Shown piece by piece: positions 24,456 through 43,125 of a stretch of 64,000 nucleotides of DNA. A program made the position numbers and the translations under genes. How positions within the stretch are numbered: the stretch's first letter is position 1; every line of letters begins with the position of its first letter. The stretch comes from Sinomonas cyclohexanicum (lineage in GTDB: Bacteria; Actinomycetota; Actinomycetes; Actinomycetales; Micrococcaceae): positions 1,860,001-1,924,000 of the forward strand of contig NZ_AP024525.1 of NCBI RefSeq assembly GCF_020886775.1, given 5' to 3'. The notes under the pieces were generated by a model, which saw nothing but the letters and a program-made list of their open reading frames with translations, had not been told where the DNA came from and searched no databases.

Positions 24456-25736
24456 GTGACGCCCCCCACGGAAAATGAGACCGCCCAGGCGGCCATGGCG
24501 GACAATCCGCAGGCCACGAGCGCTCCTGCGCGCTCTGCGGCCAAGCGGTCCCCGGCCAAGCCGGCTGCATCCAAGGCCAAGGCACCCGCGCGCAAGGCCG
24601 CGGCCAAGGCCGCCCCGAAGGGCGCAGCGAGCGTCAAGGCGGAGGCCGCAGACGCGAAGGCCGGGCTGGACGAGGAGGCCGTCGAGGAGGACCTCGAGGC
24701 CGTCACGCCCAACGACGGCGAGATCGTCGCTGCCGAGAGCGAGGAGAAGGCGACAGGATCCGCAATCGTCATCTCCGACGCCGACGAGGACGACGCTCCG
24801 GTCCAGCAGGTCACAAGCGCCGGTGCGACCGCCGACCCGGTGAAGGACTACCTCAAGCAGATCGGCAAGGTCGCGCTCCTGAACGCAGAGCAGGAGGTGG
24901 ATCTCGCGCTGCGCATCGAGGCCGGCCTGTTCGCCAAGCACAAGCTTGACGAGGAGGGCGAGTCCTACGACACCCAGTACCGCCATGACCTCGAGCGCAT
25001 CGTGCATGACGGCGAGCGTGCCAAGAACCACCTGCTCGAGGCGAACCTCCGTCTCGTCGTCTCCCTTGCCAAGCGGTACACCGGGCGCGGCATGCTCTTC
25101 CTGGACCTCATCCAGGAAGGCAACCTCGGCCTCATCCGCGCCGTCGAGAAGTTCGACTACACCAAGGGGTTCAAGTTCTCGACCTACGCCACGTGGTGGA
25201 TCCGCCAGGCCATCACGCGCGCCATGGCGGACCAGGCACGCACGATCCGCATCCCCGTCCACATGGTCGAGGTCATCAACAAGCTTGCCCGCGTCCAGCG
25301 GCAGATGCTCCAGGACCTGGGTCGTGAGCCCACGCCCGAGGAACTCGCCAAGGAGCTCGACATGACGCCCGAGAAGGTCGTCGAGGTCCAGAAGTACGGC
25401 CGCGAGCCCATCTCCCTCCACACGCCGCTCGGCGAGGACGGCGACTCGGAGTTCGGCGACCTCATCGAGGACTCCGAGGCCGTGGTGCCCGCGGACGCGG
25501 TCAGCTTCACGCTCCTCCAGGAGCAGCTCCACTCGGTCCTCGACACGCTCTCAGAGCGGGAGGCCGGTGTCGTGGCGATGCGGTTCGGCCTCACCGACGG
25601 ACAGCCCAAGACCCTCGACGAGATCGGCAAGGTCTACGGTGTCACGCGCGAGCGCATCCGCCAGATCGAGTCGAAGACCATGTCCAAGCTGCGCCACCCC
25701 TCCCGGTCCCAGGTGCTCCGCGACTACCTCGACTGA
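24456..25736 (+). CDS. rpoD: Principal RNA polymerase sigma factor (SigA/HrdB type)
   Basis: A 426-residue housekeeping sigma-70. An Ala/Lys/Pro-rich N-terminal extension (about 1-120) precedes region 1.2 ([16 protein letters not shown]), region 2 ([34 protein letters not shown]), region 3, and region 4 with the HTH ([19 protein letters not shown]). GTG at 24456 is chosen for the AGGAAGG site 5 nt upstream. The frame stays open further upstream but overlaps DUF4192 antiframe. The last codons (RDYLD-stop) are duplicated at 40401-40420, showing that the mobile element integrated here and preserved the protein end. Confidence 0.96.
25717..25736 (+). repeat. attL (rpoD 3' end)
   Basis: TCCGCGACTA then CCTCGACTGA, encoding RDYLD-stop of the intact rpoD. 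The first ten bases are identical to attR; the two differences are synonymous (TAC CTC versus TAT CTG). Strand exchange probably occurs within the identical block. Confidence 0.8.
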
Positions 25737-25746
25737 GAATAGGGGC

Positions 25747-25819
25747 CGCTGTGCGGTGTTTCCGCTGGTGAGAGGCCGTTTTACGGGGCCTGACGTCAGC
25801 GATTCTACACCGCACAGCG
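25747..25819. repeat. 13-bp inverted repeats between attL and the integrase gene
   Basis: CGCTGTGCGGTGT (25747-25759) and its perfect complement ACACCGCACAGCG (25807-25819), 47 nt apart. They sit between the crossover site and int, where arm-type integrase or excisionase sites are expected. The loop is too long for an ordinary terminator. Confidence 0.55.
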
Positions 25820-25839
25820 CTCTCAGTCGAGATATCAAC

Positions 25840-25845
25840 TAGACT
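25840..25845 (+). promoter_or_regulatory. -10 box TAGACT of the integrase gene (leaderless)
   Basis: TAGACT lies 6 nt before the int ATG. The resolvase gene at 31450 has the identical box at the identical distance. Confidence 0.5.
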
Positions 25846-25851
25846 GGGTTC

Positions 25852-26757
25852 ATGCCAGCCAAGGCCCCGGACCCCGATCTTGGCTCGCTCCTGCCCTCGT
25901 GGGAACTCGCCCTCAGGGCCGTGCGCAAGAGCCCCGCGACGCTGAAGAGCTACGGCGACGGCGTCCGGTCCTTCCTTTCATGGTGCGCCGACGACGGCCG
26001 CCCTGCCGTACTCGACCGGACCGCGGTCAACGGCTTCACGGCCGCGCTTCTCGACTCCGGGCGCGAACCGGCCACGGTGCGGTCCCGCCAGCTCGCCGTG
26101 CGCCGGTTCAGTGCCTGGCTCGCCGAGGAAGGCGAGATCCCCGCCGACCCCCTGCTCGGCCTGAAGGCACCCAAGCTCGACGTCAAGGTCGTCGAGCCGC
26201 TCACCGACGGCCAGCTCAGGGCGCTCATCAAGGCGTGCGCCGGTACGGACATGCGCGACCGCCGCGACGAGGCGATCGTCCGCTTCATGACCGAGACCGG
26301 GGCGCGCGCGGGGGAGTGCGCGGCGCTCGCACTCGACGACGTGGACCTGGCCCACGGGACCGCGACTGTCCGCCGCGGCAAGGGAGGCAAGGGCCGCGTC
26401 GTGCCATTCGGCGCCCAGACCGCCCGCGCGCTCGACCGCTACCGGCGCGCACGCGCCTCGCACAGGCTCGCCGGGACCCCTGCGTTCTGGCTGGGCGACC
26501 GCGGCAAGGCGTTCAGCTACGACGGCCTCCACAAGACCCTCGGCGAGCGTGCCGCCGCCGCTGGGATCGAAGGATTCCACCCCCACAAGCTGAGGCACAC
26601 CGCGGCCCACAGGTGGCTCGCCGCGGGCGGATCCGAAGGCGGCCTCATGGCCGTGGCCGGCTGGGAGCGCCCAGACATGCTGGCGCGCTACACCAAGGCC
26701 CGCGCGGCCGAGCGCGCCGCCGAGGAAGCCCGGAGGCTGAACCTGGGGGACCTCTGA
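25852..26757 (+). CDS. int: Tyrosine integrase/recombinase
   Basis: A 301-residue site-specific recombinase. The N-terminal SAM-like core-binding domain (about 10-95, ATLKSYGDGVRSFLSW) precedes the catalytic domain with all expected residues: R152 (TGARAGE), a lysine in RRGKGGKGR (K177 or K180), H245-xx-R248 (HPHKLRH), W271 (AGWERP) and nucleophile Y280 (LARYTKA). It lacks the N-terminal arm-binding AP2 domain of larger integrases. It lies 115 bp after attL and has its own leaderless promoter and terminator. XerC/XerD was considered, but the position at an att site argues for the element integrase. Read-through from rpoD, which lost its terminator, could also express it. Confidence 0.92.
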   Translation: MPAKAPDPDLGSLLPSWELALRAVRKSPATLKSYGDGVRSFLSWCADDGRPAVLDRTAVNGFTAALLDSGREPATVRSRQLAVRRFSAWLAEEGEIPADPLLGLKAPKLDVKVVEPLTDGQLRALIKACAGTDMRDRRDEAIVRFMTETGARAGECAALALDDVDLAHGTATVRRGKGGKGRVVPFGAQTARALDRYRRARASHRLAGTPAFWLGDRGKAFSYDGLHKTLGERAAAAGIEGFHPHKLRHTAAHRWLAAGGSEGGLMAVAGWERPDMLARYTKARAAERAAEEARRLNLGDL

Positions 26758-26870: not shown

Positions 26871-26957
26871 CGTTCGTTAGACCTTCCTAACCAAGCTCGG
26901 ACGTGGTTCAGGGCCCGAACTCCTGCGATTCCGCCATGTCGGTCCGTCGACACTCGT

Positions 26958-26985
26958 TTCCACGAGGGATGGCCCCTCGTTGGAA
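26958..26985. promoter_or_regulatory. 11-bp dyad immediately before the excisionase-like gene
   Basis: TTCCA-CGAGGG and CCCTCG-T-TGGAA around ATGGC, ending 13 nt before the ATG at 26999. It overlaps where the promoter of the early operon should lie, so it could be an operator. No repressor gene was recognised in the element. Confidence 0.45.
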
Positions 26986-26998
26986 CGACTAGGACTAT

Positions 26999-27241
26999 AT
27001 GGCCATCAAGCAGATCGAGCCACTTGAGCTCTATTCGGCGGAAGACGTCATGCGGCTGTACGGCGTGTCCCGCCGCTTCGTCCAGGCCCGCATCGATGAC
27101 GGGCAGCTCACGCCGCTCTGGCTCGGGCGATACCTCCGCTTCGCCCCCGAAGAAGTCCACGCCCTCCTCCGCACCTCCAGGACACCTGAGGAAGAAGCCA
27201 TCGCCCGGGCGAACCCCAGGGGCAGGGCGGCCGGCAAGTGA
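26999..27241 (+). CDS. Excisionase/AlpA-like helix-turn-helix protein
   Basis: An 80-residue protein with a MerR-like winged HTH: LYSAEDVMRLYGVSRRFVQARID (about residues 11-33), then the wing (PLWLGRYLRFAPEEV). This is the layout of phage excisionases and of AlpA-type activators of satellite integrases. The ATG follows AGGAC by 6 nt. Its stop overlaps the GTG start of the next gene (GTGA), so the two are coupled. The distinction between excisionase and early transcription activator cannot be made from sequence. Confidence 0.75.
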   Translation: MAIKQIEPLELYSAEDVMRLYGVSRRFVQARIDDGQLTPLWLGRYLRFAPEEVHALLRTSRTPEEEAIARANPRGRAAGK

Positions 27242-27498
27242 CCGCCACGCCCACAGAACGCCGCCTCAGCGCCCAGATCGCCGCCCATGAGTCATGGGCG
27301 CGCACCGAGGACCGATCGGCCCGCACGGCCCCAGCCAGGGCCGCGCTCCTGGCGAAGTTCGAGCGCCTCGCCGACCCCGAAGGCCGACTCCTCCCCGCGG
27401 AACGCGCCCGCCGCGCCGAGCACCTCCGCAAGGCTCACTTCCAGCGCCTCGCGCTCGCCTCGGCAAAGGCCCGGCGCTGCAACAAGGCCGGGGAGTGA
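27238..27498 (+). CDS. Conserved small phage/element protein of unknown function
   Basis: An 86-residue basic helical protein (AAHESWARTEDRSARTAPARAA; LLPAERARRAEHLRKA; ASAKARRCNK). Proteins with this AHxSWAxTxDRxARTxPAR pattern and RRAEHxRKA are, as I recall, frequent in actinobacterial phages and integrative elements, next to excisionase genes as here. It starts with GTG overlapping the preceding stop. The replication-protein frame overlaps most of it in another frame. Function unknown. Confidence 0.7.
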   Translation: MTATPTERRLSAQIAAHESWARTEDRSARTAPARAALLAKFERLADPEGRLLPAERARRAEHLRKAHFQRLALASAKARRCNKAGE

Positions 27499-28420
27499 TT
27501 CTGCGGACCGACACGAAGAAGCGCCCCCGGACCCGAACCGAGGGCGCCCCAAGAACAGCTCCAAAGGCTCGAGTGTACCGACGGCCCCCGACACTCCGGT
27601 CGGGTACTTCGAGTGGATCAGGGCGATCCGCCGTATCCACCTCGACCCCAGCACCGCGGCCGTGGCGTTCTACCTAGCGACCTACGCCAACACCAAGACG
27701 GGCCGAGGCGCACATCCGGGGGTTACCCAGCTCGCTGAGGACTCGGGGATGTCCACCCGAACCGTGATGAGGCACCTGCAGAGCCTCGAAGACCTGGGGC
27801 TCGTGGTCTGCGTCCGCAGGGGCAGCGACATGGGCCGGAAGGCCATGACGAGCGTCTACGACCTCGCCATACCCGAGGACCCGGAACATGTATCTAAGCA
27901 TCAGGATCATGTGACACCCGTGTCACATGTTGACCCCTCTGATCAGGTGACACCCATGTCACATGATCAGGTGCCACCGGTGTCACATGATCGGCCGGAA
28001 CAGGTGACACCGGTGACCGGAACAGGTGACACGGGTGTCACCCCTACTCTCCAAGAACTACCCTCCTCTAACTCACCTACCGCTGTTAAGGACGTTGGAA
28101 CGTCGCCGTCTCCGGACGTCTCACCAGCGCGCACACGCGAGGCCGCACACGAAGCCCTTGAGCGCCGCCGACCAGGAACCCGCCGACCCGAACCCGAGAA
28201 CCTCGACGACGACGCACCGCCGCCCCCCGAAGACACCGACCAGGAGATCGAACGCGTGTACACCGAGCCCGCCTGGGACGACGCACCACCCGACGACAAC
28301 GAACCCATGGATCACGACGACGAGGAACGCCTCCGGAGGCTTCCCTACAGCCGAGGCAGGATCACCAAGCCCACCCCCATTGACCTCGAGAAGCTCGCCG
28401 ACTACCCCCCGCCGTACTGA
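27287..28420 (+). CDS. Winged-helix replication initiator-like protein containing iterons
   Basis: A 377-residue frame. The reliable coding part starts around 27500. The winged helix (about residues 118-182: HPGVTQLAEDSGMSTRTVMRHLQSLE) resembles N-terminal domains of phage and plasmid replisome organisers. A repeat-rich middle (HVTPVSH, QVTPMSH, QVPPVSH) is encoded by DNA palindromes at 27908-28042, and an acidic Pro-rich tail follows (DDDAPPPPEDTD). No in-frame start exists between 27287 and the wHTH, so the ATG inside the previous gene is taken; it lacks a good ribosome site. A start upstream with a frameshift is an alternative. The role in replication is inferred from the fold and internal repeats, as in lambda O. 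Confidence 0.65.
   Translation: MSHGRAPRTDRPARPQPGPRSWRSSSASPTPKADSSPRNAPAAPSTSARLTSSASRSPRQRPGAATRPGSDSADRHEEAPPDPNRGRPKNSSKGSSVPTAPDTPVGYFEWIRAIRRIHLDPSTAAVAFYLATYANTKTGRGAHPGVTQLAEDSGMSTRTVMRHLQSLEDLGLVVCVRRGSDMGRKAMTSVYDLAIPEDPEHVSKHQDHVTPVSHVDPSDQVTPMSHDQVPPVSHDRPEQVTPVTGTGDTGVTPTLQELPSSNSPTAVKDVGTSPSPDVSPARTREAAHEALERRRPGTRRPEPENLDDDAPPPPEDTDQEIERVYTEPAWDDAPPDDNEPMDHDDEERLRRLPYSRGRITKPTPIDLEKLADYPPPY
27908..28042. repeat. Iteron-like palindromic repeats, candidate replication origin
   Basis: Five related units built on GTGACACC/GGTGTCAC: perfect arms CATGTGACAC/GTGTCACATG at 27908-27929; near-palindromes at 27941-27968 and 27965-27992, each bounded by GATC; a half-conserved copy near 28002-28018; and perfect arms GGTGACAC/GTGTCACC at 28025-28042. 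Centres are 23 to 36 bp apart. The palindromy goes beyond what the repeated amino acids require. Confidence 0.65.
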
Positions 28421-28434
28421 GGAGACGACCCCCT

Positions 28435-28788
28435 ATGGACCAAAGCGCACCCCTCATTGACCCACGGCGCTGCTGGAAGATGAGCGCCCGCTACCGCATC
28501 GCCGAGTGCGTCACGCCGTGCGGCGAGACCGAGTACTGGATTCTCGACAGCGTCCATCCCGACCAGGTCACGGTGGAGACCCCCGATCACGAGCAGCTCG
28601 GCCGACTCCCCGCGCGCTACGCCGCCGCCCTCGGCCTGACCTGCGGGGCAACAACCCGCCACGGGCGCCCCTGCCGGAACCCCGTGCACGCCCACGGCGA
28701 CCGGTGCCCACACCACACCCACGCCGCCTTCCAAGAGGCACTCCCGCTCCCCACCGAGACCCGAACCACCGCGGAGGCCGGCGCATGA
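28435..28788 (+). CDS. Small zinc-finger-like protein
   Basis: A 117-residue protein. The second half has the pattern CGATTRHGRPCRN, then GDRCPHH: four Cys/His ligand positions as in short phage and element proteins that contain the CGAxTRxGxPCxxP motif. The N-terminal half (RYRIAECVTPCGETEYWILDS) adds two cysteines and is beta-like. A ribosome site GGAG lies 11 nt upstream. Its stop overlaps the start of the next gene (ATGA). Likely zinc-binding; role unknown. Confidence 0.65.
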   Translation: MDQSAPLIDPRRCWKMSARYRIAECVTPCGETEYWILDSVHPDQVTVETPDHEQLGRLPARYAAALGLTCGATTRHGRPCRNPVHAHGDRCPHHTHAAFQEALPLPTETRTTAEAGA

Positions 28789-28952
28789 GCTACCTGTCCT
28801 TCCCCGCCCGTGAAGTCGCCGAGAACCGAGCCCTCCGCCGAGACCTCGAGGAGGCCCGGCGCGAGAACCTCGCCCTCCGCCAGCTCCTCGCCGCCGCACG
28901 CGCATCACTTCAGCGCCAGTACGAGACCACCCACCCGACCGAAAGGAACTAG
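28785..28952 (+). CDS. Small coiled-coil protein
   Basis: A 55-residue charged helix (ENRALRRDLEEARRENLALRQ) with leucine heptads. It is translationally coupled to the zinc-finger-like gene by ATGA. It is too short to assign to a family. The frame and coupling support expression. Confidence 0.5.
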   Translation: MSYLSFPAREVAENRALRRDLEEARRENLALRQLLAAARASLQRQYETTHPTERN

Positions 28953-28958
28953 ACGACC

Positions 28959-29093
28959 ATGGGACACCAGAAACACGACCAAGGACGAAAGAAGCGCCAA
29001 GCCCGTCAGGCCAAGCAGGCATTCCACGGCGCTCTCAGCCGCAAGCAGGCCCGCCAGCTCAACCGCGAACAGCGCCGCCAGCTCCCCGATTAG
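28959..29093 (+). CDS. Very small basic protein
   Basis: A 44-residue protein rich in Arg, Lys and Gln (DQGRKKRQARQAKQAF), starting 7 nt after the coiled-coil gene with GAAAGGA 9 nt before its ATG. It could bind nucleic acid, but nothing proves it. Adjacent spacing suggests the same transcript. Confidence 0.45.
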   Translation: MGHQKHDQGRKKRQARQAKQAFHGALSRKQARQLNREQRRQLPD

Positions 29094-29163
29094 AGGGCCG
29101 ACCCTTACTAGTACGGGGCCCGATCTGCTAGCTTGGTTCGAACACAATAGGGGGGAGATCACG

Positions 29164-29385
29164 ATGAGCAGATTCCGCGAGAGAACGACCACGGCAGTCA
29201 AGGCCACCGAGATGCTCGGCAAGCTGGGCACTCGGCGCGGACTTCACCGGATGACGCGTGTCTCCCACCCAGACGGCGCCCGCCAGTACCTCGACGGCCT
29301 CTGGCGCAAGACGTTTAGCCCCGAAGTCCACGAGAAGCTGCGCAACCTCGAACCTATCGGAACAGTCCGGCCGTACGCGCGCTGA
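29164..29385 (+). CDS. Small protein paired with a GNAT-like gene
   Basis: A 73-residue basic protein (RFRERTTTAVKATEMLGKLG; FSPEVHEKLRNLEP) with a GGGGGAG ribosome site 6 nt before the ATG. Its stop is followed by the next start after 4 nt, so the two genes are probably co-translated. The size and the GNAT-like partner make a toxin-antitoxin type pair conceivable, but no ribbon-helix-helix signature is seen. Unknown function. Confidence 0.5.
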   Translation: MSRFRERTTTAVKATEMLGKLGTRRGLHRMTRVSHPDGARQYLDGLWRKTFSPEVHEKLRNLEPIGTVRPYAR

Positions 29386-29389
29386 GAAC

Positions 29390-29929
29390 GTGCCCAACTG
29401 GATTCCGGCGCGAGCAGAGCACTGGGCATTGCTCCAGGCGTTTCGCTGCATGCCGCCGCTGACACCTCGCTACGGAGACCGCACAAAGCGACAAGTTAGA
29501 GAACACTGGGCCAACCAGCTTGAACGCAACATCCACAAGATCCACAAGCTCCCCGTGCGCCCACCCGAACACTTGCTGATAGCGCTCAACGTGACGCCCC
29601 TGCGCATCAATGCCTTGGCGTGGTTCGAGATGAAAATCAAGGCCGGGGAGCCCGACGCCGTCTATGTCCAGATCGGTGCCCTGGCCGTCCACGCCCAGAT
29701 GCAGCGGAACCACCTAGGCGCCGAGGGTCTGGAGCTGATCAAGCAAACCGCAGCCGAATGGGCTAGGGCGAAGTCATCCAGGATCAACCTGATGAGGCTT
29801 GAAGCGGACGTCCATGCCAAGAACAACCCTTGCATCTCGCTCATCTCGGGCGCTGGCTGGACAGCGCTGGGCAAGGCACGATCCGACGGTTACCAGCCGT
29901 GGGGCGCGGTCTATCGAGTCGGCGCCTAA
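29390..29929 (+). CDS. GNAT-like N-acetyltransferase
   Basis: A 179-residue protein. The C-terminal half follows the GNAT order: strand with VQIGALAVHAQMQR, a degenerate acetyl-CoA loop RNHLGAEGLELIK (about 105-120), then LEADVHAKNNPCISLISGAGW, the usual V..N..A...Y...GF motif with changes. The first 70 residues are divergent. GTG at 29390 is selected from the spacing to the previous stop. The degraded loop leaves catalytic activity uncertain. It lies in the accessory segment of the element between replication and TIR genes. Confidence 0.6.
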   Translation: MPNWIPARAEHWALLQAFRCMPPLTPRYGDRTKRQVREHWANQLERNIHKIHKLPVRPPEHLLIALNVTPLRINALAWFEMKIKAGEPDAVYVQIGALAVHAQMQRNHLGAEGLELIKQTAAEWARAKSSRINLMRLEADVHAKNNPCISLISGAGWTALGKARSDGYQPWGAVYRVGA

Positions 29930-30367: not shown

Positions 30368-31210
30368 ATGAAGGTCTTCCTCAGCTGGGCCGGTGATTTC
30401 AGCCGCAAGGTCGCCGAACACTTCGCAGACTGGCTGCCGTCCGTAATCCAGGAATGCCACGACCCGTACATCTCCACTGAAACACCGAAAGGCTCCCCGT
30501 GGTTCGAGACCATCACAAGGAACCTCGACCTGTGTGATGTTGGCATCGTCTTTGTGACGTCCGATAACATGGCCAGGCCGTGGCTGAATTTTGAGGCCGG
30601 GGCGATGCTAAAGAAGTTCGACCGCCCAGGAGTCTGCCCCATCCTCGTGAACATCGGGAAAGCCGACTACGTGGGACCGATGGACAACCTCCAGTTGACC
30701 GAGATCGGCGACCGGAAGGACATGCTGAAACTGCTCGGGACGATCAACGACCGGTGCCAGTCCCCGCTGGACCAGAAGATCCTGGACCGGTCGTTCGACT
30801 TCAACTGGGACGACCTTGTGCAGGCCGTGAGCCGAGCGTCCAAAGCGCAGGGGGAACCCAAGGCCGAAGAACGAGGCCTCGGAGAGAAGGTCGATGAGAT
30901 CCTCACGCTCGTCCGCGGGATACCGGAGAATATCGTGTCGCGCGAGCGCCATCCATCACGCATCCTCGACCAGCTGCGGGACCAGGACGCCCGCGAGCGG
31001 GAACTTCGAAACGACCACAGGGTCAGGATGGAAGTATTCGCGGCCATCCACGGGTCGCAATACGGATTCGACACCGAGGACGAGCAAGTCATGGTCCTCG
31101 ACTACGTCGGTGACCTCCGTTCGCCCTCCGCACTCATCGTGAAGCGCTCCGGCGGCAATGGCGAGGCTCGCGAAGTCCCATTCGGCGAGATCACCATTAC
31201 ACCGTTCTGA
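30368..31210 (+). CDS. TIR-domain protein, probable NADase effector
   Basis: A 280-residue protein. The TIR fold occupies about 1-150: MKVFLSWAGD at the first strand, DVGIVFVTSDN at the central strand, and PWLNFEAGAM carrying E76, the expected catalytic glutamate of bacterial TIR NADases (W-x-x-F-E-x-G-A). A linker with charged helix (RHPSRILDQLRDQDARE) leads to a C-terminal beta region (QVMVLDYVGDLRS; EVPFGEITITPF). Bacterial TIR proteins usually act in abortive antiviral defence by depleting NAD. Here it is cargo of a phage-related element and forms an operon with a 101-residue gene. Activation mode is unknown. Confidence 0.8.
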   Translation: MKVFLSWAGDFSRKVAEHFADWLPSVIQECHDPYISTETPKGSPWFETITRNLDLCDVGIVFVTSDNMARPWLNFEAGAMLKKFDRPGVCPILVNIGKADYVGPMDNLQLTEIGDRKDMLKLLGTINDRCQSPLDQKILDRSFDFNWDDLVQAVSRASKAQGEPKAEERGLGEKVDEILTLVRGIPENIVSRERHPSRILDQLRDQDARERELRNDHRVRMEVFAAIHGSQYGFDTEDEQVMVLDYVGDLRSPSALIVKRSGGNGEAREVPFGEITITPF

Positions 31211-31449: not shown

Positions 31450-32037
31450 ATGAATGCAACAGGTCAGCGCATCGCCTACCTGAGGGTCTCTAGCGAGGAC
31501 CAGAATCTGGCGCGGCAGTTCGAGGCTGTGGGCGACGTCGATAAGACGTTCCAGGAGAAGACGTCCGGCGGCACACGCGCCGGGCGGCGTGCAGCACTCG
31601 CCGAACTCATCAGCTACGCGCGCGCCGGCGACATCGTCATAGCGGCCTCTATAGACCGAATGGCACGCTCTATCGTCGATATGAGGCAGATCGTTGACGA
31701 GTTGCTGCACAAGGGCGTCGCAGTGCAATTCGTGAAGGAGAACCTTACGTTCGAGCCCGACAGGCAAGACTCGTTCGCAACGTTCCAGCTGAACATCATG
31801 GCGTCGTTCGCCGAGTTCGAGCGCGCGCTCATCCGCGAGCGACAGGCCGAAGGCATCAAGGCAGCGAAGGCTCGAGGGGTCTACAAGGGCCGCGCCAAGT
31901 CGATCAAGCCCGAACAGCTCGCCGAAGCCAGCCAGTGGCTCGAAGACGGCCTCACGAAGGCCGAAGCGGCCCGGAAGCTGGGCGTGGACCGCTCGACCCT
32001 GTACAGGGCGCTCAGCGCCGCCGAGGCGGCCAAGTGA
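31450..32037 (+). CDS. Serine recombinase of the resolvase/invertase family
   Basis: A 195-residue small serine recombinase. The catalytic domain starts with AYLRVSSEDQN, where S14 is the expected nucleophile; GRRAALAELISYARAGD and ASIDRMARSIVD carry the usual arginines, and the E-helix follows (FAEFERALIRERQAEGIKAAK). A C-terminal HTH (LTKAEAARKLGVDRSTLYRAL, about 166-186) binds DNA. It may resolve element multimers or drive inversion; no Tn3-type transposase is present. Its base composition is lower in GC than flanking core genes, which fits acquired DNA. Confidence 0.9.
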   Translation: MNATGQRIAYLRVSSEDQNLARQFEAVGDVDKTFQEKTSGGTRAGRRAALAELISYARAGDIVIAASIDRMARSIVDMRQIVDELLHKGVAVQFVKENLTFEPDRQDSFATFQLNIMASFAEFERALIRERQAEGIKAAKARGVYKGRAKSIKPEQLAEASQWLEDGLTKAEAARKLGVDRSTLYRALSAAEAAK

Positions 32038-38800: not shown

Positions 38801-39015
38801 CCCTCGCCTACAACGGCACGGGCCGGCGCGAGGCCATCACCAGCCCCTCAGGCGCCGGGCCGGCGGGGGCCGGCGGAGGCGTCCACCTCCACGTCGAGAT
38901 CGAGAACCAGTACGGCACCTTCGACCAGAGGTACGTCGAGCAGCTTTGGGACCAGCTCGGCAGGCACGCCGCCACGTGGGCACTCCCCGCCGCAGGCGTC
39001 CATATCAGGCGGTAA
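35830..39015 (+). CDS. Tail tape measure protein with C-terminal lytic transglycosylase-like domain
   Basis: A 1061-residue protein. The N-terminal coiled part (REDVVFTIEAQDRATAVFERMK) leads to a hydrophobic Ala/Leu/Pro-rich core (about 85-520) and a tryptophan-rich stretch (about 525-690: NWFVWLWQQVIVPAWQ). It also has the FATGGTVPGYAPGQD block followed by MLSPGEGVL, common in siphophage tape measures. At about 880-960 is a transglycosylase-like domain: E897 in IAMYESSGNPNAQN and GLMQT near 920. Tape measures set tail length and help DNA entry. The segment 37400-37900 is visibly poorer in GC, suggesting a mosaic gene. No major tail protein, distal tail or tip gene accompanies it. Confidence 0.88.
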   Translation: MALDREDVVFTIEAQDRATAVFERMKAQLAELGIEARIASAESSRSMDDMGSHAHRAADDVGVSARDISGSFNTINNVVGGVTPSITAQFMKIIGGMSLLGAAAAATSAVAGAGLAALPLVFAGVGALMVKSAVKTNAQLKAEFADAGHQISTVMAQAAAPMVGMFLSIAQDAADAFKQMGPDLHEAFATAAPQVATLASGLLALVQNVLPGMNAAMKASMPAVNALAGGFAAIGTGLGGFFQNLSAGVQGGAAGLGSLLSLVAQVLPMIGAGLAAISGPASQALAVLVKFVLQLMSSLGAGLKPVLDALLPVFAGLLNALMPLLPAIGQLIAAFAPAIAQIGGALVPIISQLVGVFVQLLPSVTPLIAPLLSLLSPIVTMIGPLLTLAAAFGQALMPVIAALLPIIQKLQDVISGQLGAALLSIGKAIIPILPYLGTLVQIVGTALVQALQILMPPLAQLISSGLGALLSAIAPLLPMIGEILAPLLVSLAKLLAAVLQAVMPLLAPLIQLAGVILQGLATVIVWLVQNAIAPLISWIADHLQPAIIAVGNWFVWLWQQVIVPAWQAIVQAFGNAWNWIYQYVIQPIIDYFHRVGDAFTWLWQSVVVPVWDGIQKAIGAAWNWLSQYVFGPIGDAIGALGGAFKTTAGIIGDAWKAIQTAAEAPIRFVVDTIYNNGIRTVWNAIADVFHGKDLNPVSINFATGGTVPGYAPGQDTVHAMLSPGEGVLIPQAVRGLGGPGAIDSINRSFGGRGASGVGSHFADGGVIGDIFGAIGTAAGAVGNAVGGALNGLKNAVLGGLSAAATPVIRGIENAARGFLGTTGFGGLIDSGVDWLGSGILSFLAGQDKTAQAAAANANATPGAFPGTLAGWVSAAMAAVGVSGADWLNGLETIAMYESSGNPNAQNNTDVNAQNGDPSRGLMQTIMSTFEAYRLGSLPDNIFDPVANVAAAIRYIISRYGGIGGVPGLVSLAHGGAYVGYDSGGWLEPGLTLAYNGTGRREAITSPSGAGPAGAGGGVHLHVEIENQYGTFDQRYVEQLWDQLGRHAATWALPAAGVHIRR

Positions 39016-39061
39016 GGGGCGCGCCGGGGCCCTACCCTTGAGGAGTAAAGAAGGAGAACCG

Positions 39062-39292
39062 ATGGCGCTCACCGAGGTCGAGACCTACGACGTCCAGGCA
39101 GAAGGCTATGCCGCGTCGAACCGCGGCGACGGCCCCCGGCACAACCCGTACTCGTGGTCCAAGGACAACGAGCGCTGCAGGGCATGGATCGCCGGGCACG
39201 CCATGGCCACGACGGAACTCGCCGCGGCGGGCGTCACGGTCGCGCGCTGGACGGGCCCCACGCCTAAGGAGCGCGCCGCGCAGCAGTCCTGA
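39062..39292 (+). CDS. Small Rmf-like protein
   Basis: A 76-residue protein. EGYAASNRG (14-22), NPY (28-30) and RCRAWIAGHAMA (38-49) follow the layout of ribosome modulation factor (G-x-A, NPY, W-x-x-G). AAGGAG lies 6 nt before the ATG. Rmf dimerises ribosomes in slow-growing gammaproteobacteria; Rmf-like genes also occur in phages. The role in this element is unknown. It is the last rightward gene and is followed by a terminator. Confidence 0.55.
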   Translation: MALTEVETYDVQAEGYAASNRGDGPRHNPYSWSKDNERCRAWIAGHAMATTELAAAGVTVARWTGPTPKERAAQQS

Positions 39293-39304
39293 CGGACATG
39301 AGAA

Positions 39305-39346
39305 GGGCGCCCCGGTCCAGATTGGGGGGATAGGACCGGGGCGCCC
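39305..39346. terminator. Terminator between the tail module and the leftward operon
   Basis: GGGCGCCCCGGTCC (39305-39318) pairs perfectly with GGACCGGGGCGCCC (39333-39346), between convergent transcripts. Confidence 0.8.
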
Positions 39347-39357
39347 GGGCAATGAGG

Positions 39358-39576
39358 CTACACGCCGTTTCTGGGCAGGCGCTGGACGACACGCGACAGC
39401 ACGTCGAGCAAGCGCCGCCACTCGCGCGCTACGGGCGTCTGCGGGCCGACGTAGCCCTTGCACGTGGGGTCGCCCGCACGGGCCGCTGCTACGCGCCACC
39501 GGCGGGCCCTCGCCTGCAAGCGCCGTCGAGACGCTGTTGGGGGCGGCGCGGTAGAAGGCTGGAAGCGCAGGCTCAC
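39358..39576 (-). CDS. Third gene of the leftward operon, unknown
   Basis: A 72-residue basic protein (MSLRFQPSTAPPPTASRRR; GDPTCKGYVGPQTPVAREWRRLL). The GTG start at 39576 overlaps the preceding stop (GTGA), which is the main support that it is real. No family is recognised. It ends 11 nt before the shared terminator. Confidence 0.5.
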   Translation of the reverse strand: MSLRFQPSTAPPPTASRRRLQARARRWRVAAARAGDPTCKGYVGPQTPVAREWRRLLDVLSRVVQRLPRNGV

Positions 39577-39987
39577 GGCTCGCCGGTCTCCGCGGATGGA
39601 TAGCCGATCCTCTCGAGGTGAGCTTGCGCCTGGGCGAGCGCCCAGTCGAGATCCTTGAAGTCTCCACCGATCCAGTGATCCTCGACGCCGTCGCCGTCCA
39701 TCTCGATGTAGCAAAGGTTCCACCCCGGCTGGGGGTGGTGGCGCTCGGTGAAATCTAGGATCGGCGTTTGGTCCTTATCGAATTGTTCGTCGCCAGGATT
39801 GACCTCAGTCGCCACGCGGATTCGGAAACGCTCGCCCATGGCCTTAATCGTCTCCCACCGTCACGGCCTCGGGGAAGGCCTGCGTCCCAACTATGGCGCC
39901 ATCGAGGCCGCGGTACTTGGCGGCGGCGTGCGGTAGAGCTCGTGCTCGCATACGGTCCGCGCTTTGCCGCGCCGTCGAGACGCTGTT
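39521..39987 (+). repeat. 18-bp direct repeat pair in the leftward operon
   Basis: CGCCGTCGAGACGCTGTT occurs at 39521-39538 and at 39970-39987, 449 bp apart. The copies lie in two different genes and are read in different frames, so the conservation is at DNA level. Confidence 0.6.
39573..39839 (-). CDS. Second gene of the leftward operon, unknown
   Basis: An 88-residue acidic protein (FRIRVATEVNPGDEQFDKDQ; GWNLCYIEMDGDGVEDHWIGGDFKDLDWAL) with an alpha/beta look. It starts 4 nt after the preceding gene and its stop is overlapped by the next start. No domain recognised. The gene order and tight spacing support a real operon. Confidence 0.6.
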   Translation of the reverse strand: MGERFRIRVATEVNPGDEQFDKDQTPILDFTERHHPQPGWNLCYIEMDGDGVEDHWIGGDFKDLDWALAQAQAHLERIGYPSAETGEP

Positions 39988-40296
39988 CGGCCCCGTCAGC
40001 TTCGTGACCTTCCCGACCTCATCCGTGAGGAGATCCGAGAAGCCCACGCCTTGGGTGTGCGCGACGCGGCCAAGCTCTGCAACCGTGGCTTCCGCGATCG
40101 GGACGAGCTCCTCAGGGGCGAACGTGCGCGTGATCCCCGAGTCGAGGGCGACGGACACGAGGCCGCTGGCCTCCTGGCCCGACTCGCCCGGCACGACGGT
40201 CCCACGATGGCCCATGAGGTAGGCGCGCGTCTCGGTGGTCCAGTAGTCGCTACGGACCACGAGGACCCGCGTACCTGGGGCTGGAGTTGTGGACAT
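39844..40296 (-). CDS. First gene of the leftward operon, SH3/KOW-like N-terminus
   Basis: A 150-residue protein. The first 65 residues look like a small beta barrel (GTRVLVVRSDYWTTETRAYLMG; HRGTVVPGESG; ITRTFAPEELVPI), followed by a helical region and a C-terminal part (RALPHAAAKYRGLDG). GAGGAG lies 8 nt before the ATG. It is transcribed towards the tape-measure gene from a promoter between the gene and attR. It is the element gene nearest the right end and has no DNA-binding motif that would mark it as the repressor. Confidence 0.6.
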   Translation of the reverse strand: MSTTPAPGTRVLVVRSDYWTTETRAYLMGHRGTVVPGESGQEASGLVSVALDSGITRTFAPEELVPIAEATVAELGRVAHTQGVGFSDLLTDEVGKVTKLTGPNSVSTARQSADRMRARALPHAAAKYRGLDGAIVGTQAFPEAVTVGDD

Positions 40297-40400
40297 TGGG
40301 GGTCTCCTCAGTCAAGGATATTTCGCCCCATAGCGCTCTCTTGGGATAGCTAGAGCTACCCGAACTGGCGGGAATCCGTACAGCGTTCACTCGGTTAGAG

Positions 40401-40420
40401 TCCGCGACTATCTGGACTGA
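40401..40420 (+). repeat. attR (displaced rpoD 3' end)
   Basis: TCCGCGACTA then TCTGGACTGA: in frame it reads RDYLD-stop, the same last residues as RpoD, with synonymous differences at two bases from attL. The rpoD terminator-like hairpin starts 20 bp later. Confidence 0.8.
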
Positions 40421-40440
40421 CCACCGCACGCCACCACAGA

Positions 40441-40485
40441 CGAGAAGGGCCCGGACACCTGTTGCAGGTGTCCGGGCCCTTCTCG
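40441..40485. terminator. Perfect 21-bp hairpin, probably the original rpoD terminator
   Basis: Arms 40441-40461 and 40465-40485 (start CGAGAAGGGCCCGG) with a 3-nt TTG loop. It lies just outside attR and before the leftward DUF7455 gene, so it originally separated two convergent genes. Confidence 0.85.
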
Positions 40486-40528
40486 TAGTCCGGCTTTGCC
40501 CGCCTGACGGGGCTCAGCGTGGTGGAAC

Positions 40529-40750
40529 TCAGTCCTCGGCGAGGGCGACGGGATCAGTCAGCCGGCTCGACTCGTCATGCCACACGGAGGCCAGCGGACG
40601 CAGCGTGGGCTCGACGGCACGCGCGTGGTGGGCGCAGAACTGGAGCTCACCGCCCGATGCCTCCAGGACGACGCGCACATAGGCCTGGGCGCCACAGCGG
40701 TCGCAGCGGTCGATGGCGGTCAGGGTCGGATCCGCAAGTGCTGCAGTCAT
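40529..40750 (-). CDS. DUF7455 zinc-ribbon-like protein
   Basis: A 73-residue protein with CDRCG (C16, C19) and FCAHHAR (C39, H41/H42), a likely zinc site. The DUF7455 family is commonly encoded beside rpoD and parE in Micrococcaceae. The ATG at 40750 follows GAGGAGG by 6 nt; longer in-frame starts lack support. Before integration it would have been convergent with rpoD. Function unknown. Confidence 0.82.
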   Translation of the reverse strand: MTAALADPTLTAIDRCDRCGAQAYVRVVLEASGGELQFCAHHARAVEPTLRPLASVWHDESSRLTDPVALAED

Positions 40751-41018
40751 CTCAGCCTCCTCAGCGTTCACAGGGTGCTTCACGCGGTTCACTACATCTA
40801 ACACCGCCGATGCGGGTATTTCTGCCAAGAATGGGCAACTTTCGCTCGCGGCGTATTGCAGTTCGGCAACGGCCCACGCGCGCCCTGACGCCGGGGGGTG
40901 AACAGTCGGGCGCACGGCTGGCGGCGTTGCCACCTCGCGGGGCGCCCGGCGACTAGTCTAGATCTGTACCCTGCCATCCGACCGAACGAGTCGTCCCCCT
41001 CGAAGGAGTGCCGCGCGC

Positions 41019-43125
<2,107 letters not shown>

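Follow-up and report, generated by a model that had tools for sequence, protein, structure and literature searches.

A predicted initiator gene with internal palindromic repeats

The window analysed here is a 64,000-nucleotide stretch of the Sinomonas cyclohexanicum genome (contig NZ_AP024525.1, positions 1,860,001 to 1,924,000), and all coordinates below refer to it. An open frame of 377 codons on the plus strand (27287-28420) encodes a protein with a winged helix-turn-helix (wHTH) domain of the HTH_36 family. Directly 3' of the sequence for this domain, in the middle of the gene, lie five related palindromic units of the type GTGACAC-NN-GTGTCAC (27911-28041), which are followed by an AT-richer tract (28047-28106). 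On the basis of the sequence comparisons described below, we consider it highly probable that this segment is, or was, a prophage replication origin situated inside its own initiator gene, as in lambda O.

The core of the HTH_36 domain (PF13730; E 5.8e-10, 39.3 bits against a curated cut-off of 25) occupies 27641-27805 on the plus strand, the Pfam stretch that corresponds to residues 119-173 of the long frame. Residues 119-281 match phrog_391 (E 1.1e-12), an O-like class assigned to replication initiation. Neither Phage_rep_O, which we take to be PF04492, nor RepA_N (PF06970) is present among the 15 Pfam matches of the protein at E <= 0.1. Judged by its sequence, the gene is an HTH_36 O-like initiator and no recognisable member of Phage_rep_O or RepA_N.

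Unit 1 (27911-27926) has perfect 7-base arms, GTGACAC-CC-GTGTCAC, as does unit 5 (28026-28041), which is read in another codon phase. Units 2 (27947-27962) and 3 (27971-27986) carry 1 mismatch each, and unit 4 (28004-28019) has a degenerate right arm with 3 mismatches; no strand is assigned to these iterons or to the tract behind them. Start-to-start distances are 36, 24, 33 and 22 bp. These coordinates and mismatch counts agree with the original prediction, made from the letters alone, of five related palindromes, two of them with perfect arms, placed just after the DNA-binding domain. The GATC borders that it pointed out do adjoin units, and we give them no weight as evidence. When up to 3 mismatches are allowed, the 16-mer has 10 matches in the 64 kb (both strands counted), every one of them at the iteron cluster, versus a mean of 2.33 and a maximum of 6 in 100 dinucleotide shuffles. 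A relaxed form of the motif has six matches in the 4.41 Mb genome, five of which are the cluster.

Selection on the DNA of the repeats

The encoded protein contains a QVTPVSH-type peptide repeat, and the DNA repeats might thus be a by-product of selection on that peptide. Synonymous shuffles, which preserve the protein, do not yield the palindromes. The stretch 27878-28072, picked once the repeats had been seen, holds 38 inverted 8-mer pairs versus 5.2 ± 4.0 in such shuffles, and none of 2000 shuffles reaches 38. Across 27497-28417 there are 47 pairs versus 14.7, again with 0 of 2000 shuffles as high. The parts of the gene 5' and 3' of the repeats exhibit no inverted-repeat excess, given that 1240 and 213 of 2000 synonymous shuffles, respectively, reach the observed value.

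Relatives that carry the motif also argue against a peptide origin. Their wHTH domains, the window included, were grouped at 80% identity into 23 clusters with one representative each. Perfect arms inside the frames of these representatives fall 47 times in phase 0, 54 times in phase 1 and once in phase 2, where GTGACAC contains a stop. In 20 of the 22 clusters with in-frame arms, a single gene uses more than one phase (L018 uses all three), such that the same DNA is read into different peptides. Fourfold-degenerate sites are constrained inside the GTGAC/GTCAC cores, where 7%, 19% and 0% of them differ in three families, versus 52%, 42% and 4% outside; the pairs compared are not independent, and L164-L168 were left out for their short frames. 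Selection on the peptide repeat was rejected on these three grounds (shuffles, phases and fourfold sites), and we give it almost no credence. The same results support the prediction that selection acts on DNA rather than on the peptide.

Searches with only the wHTH domain retrieved 27 loci, of which 25 carry three or more perfect arms. Eleven of the 27 lie on contigs already in the motif scan; among the other 16, 14 keep at least 3 arms, one keeps one and one keeps none. Because the fetched loci are relatives of motif-bearing queries, they test conservation and not prevalence. Locus L168 has no perfect arm, yet it retains GTGAC-N6-GTCAC, which looks like the true iteron core.

Distribution of the motif in viral and bacterial contigs

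A search pattern spanning 1.5 units identified the clustered motif in 35 viral and 30 genome contigs, and the reversed pattern, used as a control, matched 2 viral contigs. Some sequences belong to both the viral and the genome set, such as L040 and L056, which represent a single stretch. Twenty-three of the viral matches are inside a wHTH gene, three are past the frame end but at most 140 bp behind the domain, four are 0.7-0.8 kb before the end of the wHTH domain, and five have no wHTH. Genome matches are inside a wHTH gene in 10 cases, directly behind one in a single case, and without one in 19. Thus, 26 of 35 viral matches, 11 of 30 genome matches and 0 of 2 reversed controls are located in, or at most 140 bp behind, a wHTH domain. 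A locus was counted as lacking wHTH when none was present within the DNA stretch examined, and in several such loci the match sits near the end of that stretch. The genome matches inside wHTH genes come from Brevundimonas, Proteobacteria, Pseudomonas, Omnitrophota, Acidobacteria and Corynebacterium contigs, which represent four phyla by their recorded taxon names. The seed hidden Markov model (HMM) used to call wHTH domains was built partly from domains of motif matches and is therefore biased toward motif loci. All 25 domains of the alignment described below (A3) independently match PF13730.

A small palindromic repeat, mobile or of chance origin, that landed in the gene is another conceivable source of the iterons. 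The 19 genome matches without a wHTH gene speak for such an element, as does the presence of the cluster on two or three contigs in some Bacteroidaceae assemblies. Set against this, the motif is nearly absent elsewhere in the genome of the window, and the place behind the wHTH domain is common to distant lineages and to relatives with other palindromes, the closest relative (L074) included. We therefore regard this explanation as very unlikely.

Several further loci were recorded in these searches. Ten of the 19 genome matches without wHTH are Bacteroidaceae or Prevotellaceae contigs with GTGACAC/GTGTCAC clusters (L041, L048, L050, L053, L054, L058, L059, L062, L065 and L069), and some assemblies of these two families carry the cluster on two or three contigs. 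L024, L030 and L037 have iteron clusters approximately 0.8 kb before the end of the wHTH domain, a layout different from that of the window, and L011 has a similar cluster with no wHTH match. When viral contigs were searched with the wHTH domain of the window, four stretches matched a pattern and none was confirmed. A search for distantly related DNA, with the iteron block as query, returned weak matches only (best E 0.4 for plasmids and 5 for phages). One of its three phage matches falls in a Mesorhizobium phage vB_MseS-P1 gene annotated 'DNA replication initiation protein', but is too weak to count. No description of a GTGACAC iteron across phyla was found in a literature search that covered mainly journals open without subscription.

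The AT-richer tract, DnaA boxes and adjoining genes

The tract at 28047-28106 has an AT fraction of 0.47 versus 0.31 around it, a modest difference, and is a candidate unwinding element. In all 23 clusters, the 60 bp that follow the iterons have a higher AT fraction than their surroundings (mean 0.53 versus 0.42), and in 21 of 23 this fraction also exceeds that of the next 60 bp. The AT-rich tails exhibit a weak periodicity of 10-12 bp, with the mean attained by 1 of 500 shuffles and no clear peak at any single lag, and no claim is made for it. Among 14 Omnitrophota-type loci, 12 have perfect DnaA boxes adjoining the iterons, in differing orientations. Within L157-L168, where such boxes stand beside in-gene iterons, two subgroups have opposite orientations.

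Genes next to the iteron-bearing genes were surveyed by scanning 20 of 38 listed open reading frames (ORFs), from 18 clusters. A DnaC-like helicase loader is present in L009 and L016 and a DnaB-like helicase in L031 (2 and 1 of the 18 clusters, respectively). Large terminase genes were found in L027 and L055, a reductase in L031 and a regulator in L067. Methyltransferase or ParB-like genes occur downstream in L014, L040 and L045, which are Omnitrophota-type loci. The remaining ORFs have no known function or family. Two relatives selected by protein sequence, L086 and L089, have loader-type ATPase and DnaB-type genes adjoining.

In-gene repeats across the wHTH family

A separate set of 74 loci was selected by protein sequence, of which 33 were dropped because no seed-HMM match was present at the centre. 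The remaining 41 were used for arm counts, and 40 (the window excluded) for a test of repeat excess, two of these being too short behind the wHTH domain; L086/L089, L093/L094 and L104/L105 are near-duplicates. Among the 38 genes tested, the 330 bp behind the wHTH domain exhibit an excess of inverted repeats in 15 and of direct repeats in 25 (p <= 0.002). At the same threshold, control stretches yield 0 of 40 in the coding stretch before the wHTH domain and 1 of 30 in the stretch after the repeat region. Perfect GTGACAC/GTGTCAC arms behind the domain are confined in this set to the window (7) and L091 (1). Repeats are frequent at this place, and their sequences vary from gene to gene; carrying repeats inside the gene is thus common in the family, and GTGAC is one specificity among them. 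The L091 gene, which is initiator-like, carries GTGAC-N5-GTCAC-like palindromes, a spacing variant of the iteron in the window.

The recognition helix and the fold of the domain

Alignment A3 comprises the domains of the window, 20 cluster representatives and four more relatives; L014, which is cut at a contig end, and L070, a weak wHTH match with the helix sequence R-L-V-Q-R, were left out. Mean column identity is 32%, and the only invariant columns are R63 and R67, both located where the predicted recognition helix (residues 62-74 of the model) begins. The corresponding R-T-V-M-R of the window is encoded at 27758-27772 on the plus strand. The pattern R[TSQ][VI]xR occurs in 22 of 23 GTGAC clusters, the exception being L070, versus 7 of the 40 genes selected by protein (Fisher 6e-10, with relatedness not taken into account). 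One of these seven, L091, has the GTGAC variant, and two, L088 and L107, have palindromes of other sequence; the remaining four (L084, L110, L117 and L129) either exhibit no inverted-repeat excess or are too short for the test. The link between helix and iteron is thus not strict.

An AlphaFold2 model of the domain is a winged helix with a mean predicted local distance difference test (pLDDT) score of 85.8. Foldseek detected no match in the PDB at E <= 0.001; regulators rank first, and the DnaD N-terminal domain is at rank 20 (E 0.01). Matching viral models in BFVD are mostly phage helix-turn-helix proteins. They include, at rank 41, the predicted 'replication protein O' of Escherichia phage Min27 (template modelling score 0.71, root-mean-square deviation 2.2, E 1.4e-4), which is weak evidence because winged helices are common. 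The best PDB sequence match of the profile is TnsB, with RTVQR at residues 77-81. A cryo-electron microscopy study reportedly places R77 and R81 in contact with bases, although its authors doubt a strong contribution of these contacts to recognition (PMC9371665).

These matches bear on the possibility that the palindromes are operators, bound by the wHTH protein or by a prophage repressor for transcription control within the early operon, and that replication starts elsewhere. Domains of the wHTH type are common in regulators, and most PDB matches of the profile after TnsB, like the best fold matches, are transcription regulators. However, the position of the iterons, mid-gene and behind the wHTH domain, is common to initiators of several phyla, an AT-richer tract follows them, and the Omnitrophota-type relatives have DnaA boxes beside the sites. 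The PHROG class of the protein is likewise replication initiation. An operator function in place of an origin is therefore improbable in our judgement, although autoregulation could occur alongside origin function.

Observations that weigh against an origin, and the state of the window copy

Several observations weigh against the interpretation of this segment as a replication origin. The motif-selected loci contain the motif by construction and the domain-selected loci are relatives of motif-bearing queries. In 9 of the 35 viral matches and 19 of the 30 genome matches, the motif is neither in nor directly behind a wHTH gene. A DnaA box is present within 1.5 kb in only 3 of 23 clusters, and no such box at <= 1 mismatch was found in 26900-29500 of the window. 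The tested ORFs of the surrounding element, which are a subset of all its ORFs, include neither a large terminase or portal gene nor a helicase loader or DnaB gene. The wHTH frame has no ATG, GTG or TTG between 27290 and the wHTH domain, and this copy of the initiator may be frameshifted and may be dead here.

The closest relative found among 295 genomes of the family, L074 of the same genus (44% identity), also weighs against this interpretation, in that the palindromes of the window are absent from it. Others are present at the same place, for example CAACCGCC/GGCGGTTG, and position and palindromy, rather than sequence, have therefore been kept in that lineage. The expectation that homologues keep the palindromes while the protein drifts thus held in the motif-bearing families, as judged by fourfold sites and phases, and failed in L074, where the palindromes are different.

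The only in-frame start before the wHTH domain in L074 is a GTG that overlaps the upstream stop (GTGA), and by this comparison the start of the window initiator is expected near 27495. A GTGA overlap with the stop of the upstream gene does exist at 27495-27498, in a frame other than that of the wHTH domain. The window copy may be frameshifted, because this GTG is out of frame and no other in-frame start is available. Third-position GC is ambiguous at approximately 27486-27575 and favours the wHTH frame further 3'. The absence of a start in 27495-27616 may reflect frameshift or decay, recoding, or an assembly error. The missing start bears on the state of the window copy, not on its descent.

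The surrounding prophage remnant

The element is bounded by a gene whose translation reads as the main sigma factor (ending at 25736) and by a topoisomerase subunit gene at 41019. The integrase, excisionase-like, small and zinc-finger genes described next are on the plus strand. A tyrosine integrase gene (25852-26757; Phage_integrase E 1.3e-25, phrog_1 E 1.5e-40) is followed by an excisionase-like HTH_17 gene (26999-27241; PF12728 E 9.4e-8, phrog_66 E 2.1e-7) and by a small gene (27238-27498) whose match to phrog_2842 (E 1.9e-9) assigns no function, and whose stop forms the GTGA overlap described above. The next gene 3' of the initiator (28435-28788) encodes 117 amino acids with a weak match to a primase-type zinc finger (PF09329, E 0.0035), which at 17.5 bits is below the cut-off of 28.8. 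A homologue of this gene (53%) sits behind the L074 initiator on the same contig of G226. A further homologue, in L177 from another genome of the genus, was considered as another initiator locus and rejected, as no readable initiator was found beside it; near it, at approximately 1060-1180 of L177, is a GGCGGG-type repeat array.

The element also encodes a head-protease-like gene and a tape-measure gene. Because its tested ORFs include no large terminase, portal, loader or DnaB, it looks like a prophage remnant, and the prophage around the origin signature is probably decaying. A search for attachment sites found no direct repeat of at least 11 nt between 25501-25900 and 38901-41030. The remnant additionally contains a TIR-domain protein gene (30368-31210; PF13676, phrog_13899), possibly a defence gene, and a resolvase/DNA-invertase gene (31450-32037).

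Comparison with known in-gene origins

Origins inside initiator genes are already known, and Weigel and Seitz, in 2006, reportedly treat phage replication modules. In lambda (gene O and ori-lambda) and in the Stx lambdoid phages, the origin is mid-gene in the initiator, with imperfect inverted-repeat iterons and an adjoining AT-rich tract (PMC7466680). The window likewise has inverted-repeat iterons inside an initiator gene with an AT-richer tract beside them, and the order of wHTH domain, palindromic iterons and AT-richer tract supports the lambda O arrangement named in the original prediction. The fold of the domain weakly resembles that of the Min27 O protein. Unlike in lambda, no helicase loader gene is present among the tested ORFs of the element and the protein has no Phage_rep_O match at E <= 0.1; the likeness is one of arrangement. 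By analogy, the system in the window would work like lambda O, but we do not class it as a lambda O member.

Similar arrangements are described elsewhere. The oriL of SPP1 is inside gene 38, which encodes the origin-binding protein (PMC6316719), just as the candidate origin of the window is inside its initiator gene. Unlike in the window, oriL has direct repeats and is served by a known loader, gp39, and helicase, gp40, and the likeness to gp38 is by arrangement only. Staphylococcal RepA_N plasmids such as pSK41 encode an N-terminal wHTH domain and have Rep boxes and an origin central in the rep gene (PMC5703833). The window shares this order, with the wHTH domain first and repeats central in the gene, whereas its protein has no PF06970 match and differs in host and C-terminal part. 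The same account describes the pPR9-type hybrid initiator, whose PF13730 domain is homologous to a phage replication protein and whose rep region is capable of autonomous replication; possession of a PF13730 domain is thus compatible with a rep region that replicates on its own. Paracoccus plasmids pair PF13730 replication proteins with iteron-like repeats (PMC3832669), as the window does. Unlike in the window, pAES7 has a partial inverted iteron that overlaps the start codon of rep, and in pKL1, which encodes a Rep related to the pAES1 protein, oriV is upstream of rep and not in-gene (PMC3832669).

A possible origin-recognition module shared among phyla

The in-gene origin signature in the window is real and of a known kind, and its iteron is unusually widely shared. 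The interesting part is the link between iteron and helix across phyla. If the segment is or was an origin, the wHTH domain would bind each palindromic iteron as a dimer, through the R-x-x-x-R face of the recognition helix, with GTGAC as the core of each half-site. Several dimers would then bring the five units together in a nucleoprotein complex, 3' of which the AT-richer tract would open, and the replicative helicase would be brought in by the C-terminal part of the initiator or by a partner. The present copy would, by this account, once have worked in this manner.

We propose, tentatively and as a possibility short of a settled preference, that phages and prophages of at least four phyla, judged by contig titles, have one origin-recognition module in common, in which a winged helix with R-x-x-x-R at the start of its recognition helix is combined with in-gene GTGAC-N6-GTCAC iterons and with an AT-richer tract, and that sister lineages changed helix and iteron together. 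The mixed codon phases suggest how a coding region can double as a protein-binding origin without the peptide being conserved. If the proposal is true, the match between recognition helix and palindrome would constitute a testable recognition code. A large class of PF13730 phage initiators, many of them annotated only as 'helix-turn-helix', would gain origins assigned from sequence. The iteron would then be predictable from the helix, and the origins of many uncultured phages would be readable from sequence alone.
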